DNA from: an uncultured bacterium
GTDB lineage: Bacteria; Bacillota; Clostridia; Oscillospirales; CAG-272
NCBI GenBank assembly: GCA_945920215.1
Contig: CAMEJM010000004.1
Coordinates: 50,506-114,505, forward strand
Reading direction: 5' to 3'
DNA: 64,000 nt
Notes under the pieces: model-generated
Told to the model about the DNA's origin: nothing
What the model saw: the letters and a program-made list of their open reading frames with translations, nothing else
Database searches by the model: none
Translations under genes and position numbers: made by a program
In this document: one piece after another, positions 50,995-53,539 of the stretch
How positions within the stretch are numbered: position 1 is the first letter of the stretch
Layout of the letters: each line of letters opens with the position of its first letter

Positions 50995-51024
50995 ATTATA
51001 AATCATAATTATATAATATGTCAA
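50995..51024 (-). promoter_or_regulatory. Putative promoter for prs
   Basis: Minus strand TTGACA, 18-bp spacer, TATAAT. Confidence 0.65.
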
Positions 51025-51146
51025 TGAAAAAACCGCCGAAAAATCACTTTTGACGTTTTGTGTAATATTTTGTCTTTCGGAGCGCATTTTTTCTATCAAA
51101 GCATATCATGGAAACGATTGAAAACCAACCGAGAAAGGAGAAAACG

Positions 51147-51575
51147 ATGGAATACGGCAACAGACCCATGACATCCGTCGGGTATTTAATCGTGGAAGCA
51201 AAAACCGCCGAGGGGGCGCTCCCCGTTGCGGGCGCGGTCGTCAATGTCAGTTCTACCCCCGGCACGGGAAATGTCAGACTGACAGTGGAAACCGACATTT
51301 CGGGGAGAACGGAGCGCCTTGCACTCCCTACTGTGGCGGAGGAGCTTTCCGAACGTCCGAACATCAAACACCCCTATGCCACATACGATATTTCGGTGAT
51401 AGCGGACGGCTATTATCCCTTCACCGCCAAACAAGTACCGATTTTTAACGGCGTCACCACGCTTCAGCCGGCAATGCTGATTGCCCTGTCCGCCTATGAC
51501 AGCGACTCGGTGTATCCGCGGGGGAACACATCCGTTGGCGATACCGAGCCTTTTCAGAACACACCGGAAGAATAA
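51147..51575 (+). CDS. Small beta-sandwich protein (carboxypeptidase-regulatory/SleC N-domain-like)
   Basis: GYLIVEAKTAEGALPVAGAVVNVSS...TDISGRTERLALP...YATYDISVIADGYYPFTAKQVPIFNGVTTLQ; no signal peptide seen. Confidence 0.6.
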   Translation: MEYGNRPMTSVGYLIVEAKTAEGALPVAGAVVNVSSTPGTGNVRLTVETDISGRTERLALPTVAEELSERPNIKHPYATYDISVIADGYYPFTAKQVPIFNGVTTLQPAMLIALSAYDSDSVYPRGNTSVGDTEPFQNTPEE

Positions 51576-51587
51576 AGGAGAAAAGTC

Positions 51588-53003
51588 ATGCCCCAAACCA
51601 CAACTCCCGTAATCCCGGAAACCATTACGGTACACCTCGGCGCACCCGACTCCGATGCGCAGAACATCACGATTCCCTTTGCCGATTACATCAAGAACGT
51701 TGCGTCCAGTGAAATATACCCTACTTGGCCGGAAGCGGCGATACGGGCAAATATCTATGCGCAGATTTCTTTTGCTCTCAACCGAATTTACACGGAATAC
51801 TACCGCTCCCGCGGATATCCCTTTGACATTACCAACGACATTTCGCGCGACCAGTCTTTTGTTTACGGGAGGGATATCTTTGAGAACATATCGGAGATTG
51901 TAGACGATATTTTCAACAGTTATATCCGTAGAACAGGCTCCGTTGAACCGCTTTTTGCCGCCTATTGCGACGGCGAGGAGGTGCAGTGCGAGGGGTTGTC
52001 GCAATGGGGGAGCGTCCCGCTTGCCGAACAAGGCTATACCTCGTTAGAAATTCTGAAAAATTTTTACGGCGACAACATAGAACTCGTCCAGAACGCGCCC
52101 GTGGCAGGCGTAACCGAAAGCGCCCCTGTGGTTCCCCTGCGGCGAGGTTCGGCAGGTCCGCTGGTGGTACTGCTTCAACGACGCCTGAACAGGATCTCAA
52201 CCAACTACCCCGCCATTCCGAAAATTGCCTCCGCCAACGGGTCGTTCGGCGCCGACACGGAGGAAGCGGTCAAAGCGTTTCAACAAACCTTCAACCTGAC
52301 TCCGGACGGTATTGTCGGGAACGGCACCTGGTATAGCATCCTCAGAATTTACAACAGCGTCAAGAAACTCAGCGAACTGAATTCGGAGGGGCTTACCTAC
52401 TCTGAAATCTCGCAAAAGTATCCCAGTCGGTTGGAGGAAGGTGACAGAGGGATCGGCGTGCAGGTGGTACAATATATGCTTTCCTACGTTGCGAATTTTA
52501 TCGGGACGGTCGAGTCGGTCAGTGTTGACGGGGATTTCGGACCTTCAACCACCGCCGCAATCCGTTCTTTTCAGACAACGTACGGGCTGCCTGCCACCGG
52601 CGTGGTAGACGAAATCACTTATAATACACTCTATAATGTGTATCGCGGATTGGTAGAATCGTTGGATCTGACTTATCGCGAAGGCGCTGTCGTTCCGTTT
52701 CCCGGCACGCTTCTTCAGCAGGGGTCCGAGGGAGAGGACGTGGCGCTTCTCCAGAATTACCTCAATTACATCGCGCGCACCTATCCCGCCATTCCTACCC
52801 TGCCCGTTACGGGATTTTTCGGCCCCCAGACCGAGGAAGCGGTGCGTGCTTTTCTGAACTATTTTGGGCTCCCGGGAAATCCCGAGGTCGTCAATGCCGC
52901 CATTTGGAATTCCATCACGAACATATATTCCGACCTGTATGAGGGCAATATCGCGTCCGCCGGGCAATATCCCGGTTATGCGGTCGGGGGAGGTACGCAA
53001 TGA
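51588..53003 (+). CDS. SpoIID/LytB-like domain plus three peptidoglycan-binding repeats
   Basis: YIKNVASSEIYPTWPEAAIRANIYAQISFAL and GLSQWGSVPLAEQGYTSLEILKNFYGDNIELV match SpoIID patterns by eye; three PG_binding_1-like repeats. Confidence 0.82.
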   Translation: MPQTTTPVIPETITVHLGAPDSDAQNITIPFADYIKNVASSEIYPTWPEAAIRANIYAQISFALNRIYTEYYRSRGYPFDITNDISRDQSFVYGRDIFENISEIVDDIFNSYIRRTGSVEPLFAAYCDGEEVQCEGLSQWGSVPLAEQGYTSLEILKNFYGDNIELVQNAPVAGVTESAPVVPLRRGSAGPLVVLLQRRLNRISTNYPAIPKIASANGSFGADTEEAVKAFQQTFNLTPDGIVGNGTWYSILRIYNSVKKLSELNSEGLTYSEISQKYPSRLEEGDRGIGVQVVQYMLSYVANFIGTVESVSVDGDFGPSTTAAIRSFQTTYGLPATGVVDEITYNTLYNVYRGLVESLDLTYREGAVVPFPGTLLQQGSEGEDVALLQNYLNYIARTYPAIPTLPVTGFFGPQTEEAVRAFLNYFGLPGNPEVVNAAIWNSITNIYSDLYEGNIASAGQYPGYAVGGGTQ

Positions 53004-53539
53004 TACAACCGGCTCCAAGATACAATATTGATGATCCGGCACAGGTAATCCGTCAGGTGCAGACCTACCTGTTGGAGGTTGCCTATGACGACCCGCGGGT
53101 ACCGAAAATCGCCATTGACGGCATTTATGATGACGCAACGCGCAATGCGGTCAGCGCCTTTCAGAAAATAGCCGGCTTACCGGAAACGGGCATTGTCGAT
53201 TTTATAACCTGGACTGTCCTGTATGAATATGCCCTCCGTGCCGCCAAAAAGCACGAGGAAAGTATCTTTCTTGACGAGGACGCTTTCGACATCCGATTGG
53301 GAGATCTGGGGCACCACGTGATTGTTCTCCAAAGCCTGCTCGGAGAATTTTCAAAACTGTACCCGAATGTCCCCCGCCCCGCCGTGACCGGACAGTTCGG
53401 GCTCACCACCGCCGACGCGGTGCGCGCCATGCAGCGCAACTACGGCGAATATGCCGACGGATTGGTAACCATTGCGCTTTGGAACCGTATGTTGCGGGAT
53501 TACCGTGCCAACAAGCGCTTGGAAAGTCAAGGAGAATAA
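53000..53539 (+). CDS. Protein with two peptidoglycan-binding repeats
   Basis: IDGIYDDATRNAVSAFQKIAGLPETGIVDFITW and VTGQFGLTTADAVRAMQRNYG; ATGA overlap with previous gene. Confidence 0.82.
   Translation: MIQPAPRYNIDDPAQVIRQVQTYLLEVAYDDPRVPKIAIDGIYDDATRNAVSAFQKIAGLPETGIVDFITWTVLYEYALRAAKKHEESIFLDEDAFDIRLGDLGHHVIVLQSLLGEFSKLYPNVPRPAVTGQFGLTTADAVRAMQRNYGEYADGLVTIALWNRMLRDYRANKRLESQGE

Follow-up and report, generated by a model that had tools for sequence, protein, structure and literature searches.

The three adjacent genes described here probably encode a split form of the cortex-lytic enzyme SleC, a mother-cell complex that would work independently of Csp and would receive its pre-domain in trans. 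They are read on the + strand of the 64,000-nt stretch of DNA analysed in this study (the window), between prs-like and clpC-like genes. The first, orfA (51147..51575, 142 aa), corresponds to a free-standing SleC pre-domain, as found by a PDB sequence match, an AlphaFold model and a fold search. The second, orfB (51588..53003, 471 aa), corresponds to the SleC 'mature enzyme' and consists of a SpoIID/LytB-type catalytic domain (residues 7-168; 51606..52091, + strand) and three peptidoglycan (PG)-binding repeats. The third, orfC (53000..53539, 179 aa), encodes two further repeats. A Shine-Dalgarno sequence lies ahead of orfA at 51134..51141 on the + strand (AAAGGAGA, with AAAGGAG before the ATG). 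The orfB start is 12 nt past the orfA stop, and its own Shine-Dalgarno sequence overlaps that stop. Between orfB and orfC, the stop and start codons form an ATGA overlap. The close spacing and the overlap described in an earlier sequence-only reading of this DNA were thus confirmed.

In Pfam, OrfA had a sub-threshold match to CarboxypepD_reg and nothing else. Its sole sequence match in the PDB was 9H68 (E=1.3e-4, chain residues 61-146), the structure of the C. difficile SleC zymogen. The AlphaFold model of OrfA reached a pLDDT of 88.7. The models of OrfA and OrfB were searched separately against the whole PDB by fold, and 9H68 was the top match of OrfA (E=2.8e-8, rmsd about 2 A). SleC residues are numbered here as the 9H68 chain minus 57, which was fixed by the SRQS motif in the 9H68 alignment. 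In this numbering OrfA covers residues 4-89, the pre-domain. OrfA is therefore a homologue of the SleC pre-domain, and its sequence and model point to a separate small protein with a transthyretin/CarboxypepD_reg-like beta-sandwich, in agreement with the lone beta-sandwich proposed before. Two of the related loci had longer OrfA proteins. That of L036 (4252-5550, 432 aa in all) has a long Pro/Gln-rich N-terminal extension before the beta-sandwich, and that of L171 (6446-7570, 374 aa in all) is likewise extended.

OrfB also had its best PDB sequence match in 9H68, with residues 6-265 aligned to chain residues 216-477 (E=1.1e-74; E=2.7e-95 when an alignment was used for the search). For the model of OrfB residues 1-275 (mean pLDDT 84.2), 9H68 again ranked first by fold (E=1.7e-26), and SpoIID (5I1T) was far behind. 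OrfB covers SleC residues 159-420, namely the mature enzyme and the first PG-binding domain. The sequence-only reading had suggested that the parts of a SleC might be distributed over separate proteins. This was supported, because 9H68 was the best match of OrfB by sequence and fold, and of OrfA by fold and as its sole sequence match. The break between the two genes falls in the SleC linker that bears the YabG site, R119. Judging from its length, the propeptide of C. perfringens presumably makes up the remainder of this linker. In C. difficile, YabG cuts SleC at R119 and thereby removes the pre-domain (PMC6464247). In C. perfringens, the prepeptide and then the propeptide ahead of the hydrolase domain are removed, the latter at germination (PMC3567191).

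OrfB narrowly missed the SpoIID family PF08486 (21.5 bits, cut-off 23) and scored 24.7 bits against TIGR02870 (cut-off 234.75). The SpoIID/LytB-like domain recognised earlier stands, and so does the proposal that SEI..PTWPEAA is the region of the catalytic Glu. E42 of the SEIYPTW segment (codon at 51711..51713, + strand) is kept in 156 of 157 distinct homologues, and the region aligns with SpoIID 4RWR. E42 is the predicted catalytic residue. Two Cys residues are similarly conserved (Cys 127 in 157/157 and Cys 134 in 156/157).

The PG-binding repeats of OrfB are encoded on the + strand at 52137..52343 (repeat 1, common to canonical SleC), 52428..52637 (repeat 2) and 52707..52913 (repeat 3). Pfam PG_binding_1 matched OrfB in three stretches (E=1.8e-40) and OrfC in two (E=7.1e-25). 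The count of five repeats was right, and exactly five were present at 82 of 120 split loci. However, the multiplication is not a novelty of the split form, as one-chain SleC2 has 4-5 such domains (PMC5083711). Similarly, hydropathy revealed no hydrophobic N-terminus of signal-peptide strength in OrfA, OrfB or OrfC, as had been noted from the sequence, but this is not unusual, since SleC is naturally without a signal peptide (PMC4619724).

The split arrangement is conserved widely and well beyond what chance would give. A match to OrfB was present in 44 of 59 relatives, and the GTDB genomes gave at least 580 confirmed matches, from which 80 named loci were fetched. Named carriers included 'Oscillospiraceae bacterium', 'Clostridia bacterium', Agathobaculum and Ruminococcaceae bacterium Marseille-P2935. 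We collected 120 split loci from Oscillospiraceae-type Clostridia, some on contigs that end early and a few duplicated. The A gene was upstream of the B gene at 115 of them, within 60 nt at 107, and the commonest spacing was an overlap of -4. A downstream PG-binding ORF (C) was found at 98. As A lies directly upstream of B at 115 of the 120 loci and C is kept at 98, the split is not a sequencing artefact. In a sample of 243 genomes of the class, the split form was present in 11 families. The open-access literature searched contained no mention of a split SleC.

Natural fusions between A and B (G040, G051 and G054) and between B and C (L143, L148 and L191, from f40 genomes) tie the three genes together functionally. 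We also built a tree of 76 regions spanning SpoIID to the first PG-binding repeat. It is unrooted, and three long-branch rows were left out of the rebuild because they had distorted the first tree. A branch with an SH-aLRT of 93 separated the split rows, and another (SH-aLRT 100) canonical SleC, both away from the long one-chain SleC2-like forms. The trio followed host lineages. One genome, G190, carries both a canonical one-chain SleC (L170 4991-6226, Csp adjoining) and the split module (L171 5022-7570), which makes it a natural comparison strain. In another genome, G036, a SleC2-like one-chain gene is split within the SpoIID domain into two pieces (L034 4856-5857 and L033 3946-6066), which are on opposite strands and 45 kb apart. 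Its 3' piece adjoins a large serine recombinase gene, and a skin-like element or an inversion in sleC is possible. The break in the PHROG families 28785 and 23452 lies close to that in this gene.

Activation of SleC through proteolysis by Csp is the textbook switch by which C. difficile breaks dormancy. Among the 243 genomes, the CspB prodomain (PF18425) was present in 12, every one of them with canonical one-chain SleC. A Csp was found in 12 of 14 genomes with canonical SleC and in none of 26 split-only genomes (Fisher test, 1.6e-8), and YabG in 8 of 14 and 0 of 26, respectively; these counts are not independent events. Canonical and split SleC each occupy one side of a branch, so that few independent events underlie the association and it may go back to a single divergence in the past. 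PF18425 is likely to overlook some Csps, as the canonical genomes G251 and G279 had no match, and G251 has YabG. A search of near relatives for the CspB prodomain had no positive control; it was repeated class-wide and gave the 12 matching genomes. In G190, the Csp match is about 100 bp from the canonical SleC gene. Two genomes encode fusion proteins of about 1070 aa (L172 2821-6063 in G200 and L173 3598-6798 in G268), in which a CspB prodomain and a subtilase are followed by the SleC pre-domain, SpoIID and PG-binding domain, that is, the protease is joined to its own substrate. These fusions underscore the association of Csp with canonical SleC.

In the genome of the window (98% complete), family searches, on which these absences rest, found neither a PF00082 subtilase nor YabG. 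Counted by eye, an S8 protease was likewise missing from about 23 of the 32 relatives with the split form, and the S8 proteins in other members of the genus were about 2500 aa long. In the long SleC2-like forms (G040, G051, G054 and G208), a single chain does not imply Csp. The one S8 protease tested from single-chain relatives within the order (G051, L053) was closest to ordinary secreted subtilases such as thermitase, and no Csp was among the best 60 matches. A YPPKIPE-like motif was present in 15 of 15 canonical linkers (with the variants YPAKIPE, FPPKIPE and YDPKIPE); none of 148 A tails, 151 B N-termini or eight long-chain linkers had it. OrfB of the window starts only about 6 residues ahead of its SpoIID domain.

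The genome of the window contains Spo0A, SpoIVA and one GerA, so the sporulation genes whose absence would have spoken against a cortex-lytic role are in place, together with one SleB/CwlJ-type Hydrolase_2 protein and no second SleC. Upstream of orfA, the family has a strand-specific element, TTCAC-N15/16-gCATATACTg, which resembles the consensus of the mother-cell factor sigma-K. CATANNNT occurred in 107 of 139 upstream regions, against 37 in shuffled sequences and 43 on the opposite strand. Among sequences outside the building of the matrix, 27 of 94 scored at least 9 bits, compared with 2 on the reverse strand. These upstream sequences support mother-cell expression of the trio at family level only. 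A possible but weak -10 element of the sigma-K/E type, CATATCAT, is found in the window at 51102..51109 (+ strand). With P about 0.45, this match falls short of significance as a sigma-K promoter. A simple sigma-70 scan of the + strand before orfA gave a single poor site. By contrast, a perfect sigma-70 promoter (TTGACA-18-TATAAT) is present on the - strand at 50995-51024, where it serves the divergent prs-like gene.

From these data we infer the following course of events. OrfA, OrfB and OrfC are co-translated, and the probable site of this is the sporulating mother cell. Like SleC, they would reach the cortex with no signal peptide. OrfB might then act on the cortex as a lytic transglycosylase, and the 3+2 PG-binding repeats might hold it there. 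It seems that OrfB cannot be switched by the known Csp cascade, because the pre-domain is already separate, the Csp-type propeptide is missing and the host is without Csp or YabG. Control would most likely be non-covalent, with OrfA binding OrfB in trans as a chaperone or inhibitor, or it would lie in the access to the cortex substrate. Full-length SleC of C. difficile is already able to break down cortex fragments in vitro (PMC4619724), and OrfA may therefore help in folding or delivery and not be an inhibitor. In addition, as the genome also has the SleB/CwlJ-type hydrolase, germination may depend mainly on a lysin other than the split enzyme.

Single-chain relatives of the trio exist, and one might suspect a single sleC gene that was frameshifted or is decaying. 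The probability of this is negligible, because the identical split, with its own Shine-Dalgarno sites and starts, recurs in more than 100 genomes and 11 families, and we consider the broken-gene reading ruled out by this conservation. An origin from a phage or a phage tail is suggested by the PHROG families 23452 and 28785, which match B and A+B, and by seven 'Bacteriophage sp.' records that match B including its SpoIID part. However, the records that were opened are UNVERIFIED scaffolds, and in the two that were examined ORF by ORF, truA-, recJ- and carA-like host genes lie beside a canonical sleC. In IMG/VR, a single-protein scan found nothing and an alignment scan found two contigs, the only relatives that it gave. 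The position of the trio between prs-like and clpC-like genes and its agreement with host lineages also make a phage origin, which had been named as a possible objection, highly improbable, and it was rejected because the viral-looking records that were read are bacterial. The two GenBank faecal records concerned, L202 and L203 (MT837534.1 and MT838855.1), contain bacterial chromosome with canonical sleC and are probably mislabelled host DNA.

It is also conceivable, though rather unlikely, that the trio derives from SleC without being a germination enzyme, and that it remodels cortex or cell wall during spore formation or lyses the mother cell, while the SleB-type hydrolase carries out germination. 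The Hydrolase_2 protein of its own genome would fit this, as would the lack of any obvious timing device without Csp. One-chain SleC2 paralogues with no assigned role, which occur alongside canonical SleC in G117, G229 and G251, point in the same direction (PMC5083711). However, among solved structures it is the germination enzyme SleC, and not SpoIID, that comes closest in both sequence and fold, and in the split genomes G045 and G047 no Hydrolase_2 was found, which leaves the split enzyme as the remaining candidate for germination. A further reading, which we consider improbable, is that the enzyme is still proteolysed by an unrelated protease and that the gene split merely stands for the first, YabG-type cut. 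The part that is separate here is exactly the one that YabG cuts off in C. difficile (PMC6464247), and our protease search covered S8 and YabG. Against this, OrfB begins so close to the SpoIID domain that no propeptide is left to cut.

A large group of gut Clostridia might activate a SleC-type lysin without proteolysis, with OrfA as a separate regulatory subunit that holds or delivers the enzyme in trans and with germination independent of Csp; we put this forward tentatively and with some doubt. The carriers are gut commensals that share the niche of C. difficile, and our results suggest that germination in many gut spore formers follows rules other than those of C. difficile. The trio is also a natural 'pre-cut' enzyme for assays, that is, the SleC family in a form already without the cut, and makes a direct test of the purpose of the SleC pre-domain possible.

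Compared with SleC of C. difficile and C. perfringens (9H68), the trio has the same pre-domain fold, the same SpoIID/LytB domain with the Glu and two Cys, the PG-binding repeat next to it towards the C-terminus and no signal peptide. It differs in that SleC is a single pre-pro chain with a YPPKIPE-type propeptide, is processed by YabG and CspB and has one PG-binding repeat, whereas here the pre-domain has its own gene, the propeptide is missing, Csp and YabG are absent from the genome and there are five repeats. SleC2a/b of C. botulinum group II similarly combine SpoIID/LytB with several repeats, 4-5 in one chain (PMC5083711), which are spread over two proteins in the trio. Instead of one chain of about 700-800 aa (698-792 aa in SleC2a/b), there are three proteins here. 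The long one-chain SleC2-like forms that we examined share the pre-domain and a linker without the YPPKIPE motif. SpoIID (5I1T, 4RWR) shares the catalytic fold, the conserved Glu and the GxSQWG segment; it has no PG-binding repeats, and its similarity to OrfB is much weaker than that of SleC and below the PF08486 cut-off. SleB has the same type of PG-binding repeat (a partial TIGR02869 match), but its Hydrolase_2 catalytic domain is absent from OrfA, OrfB and OrfC. Among these systems, the trio is a new variant of SleC, and what it implies for the activation of the enzyme is rather surprising and can be tested.
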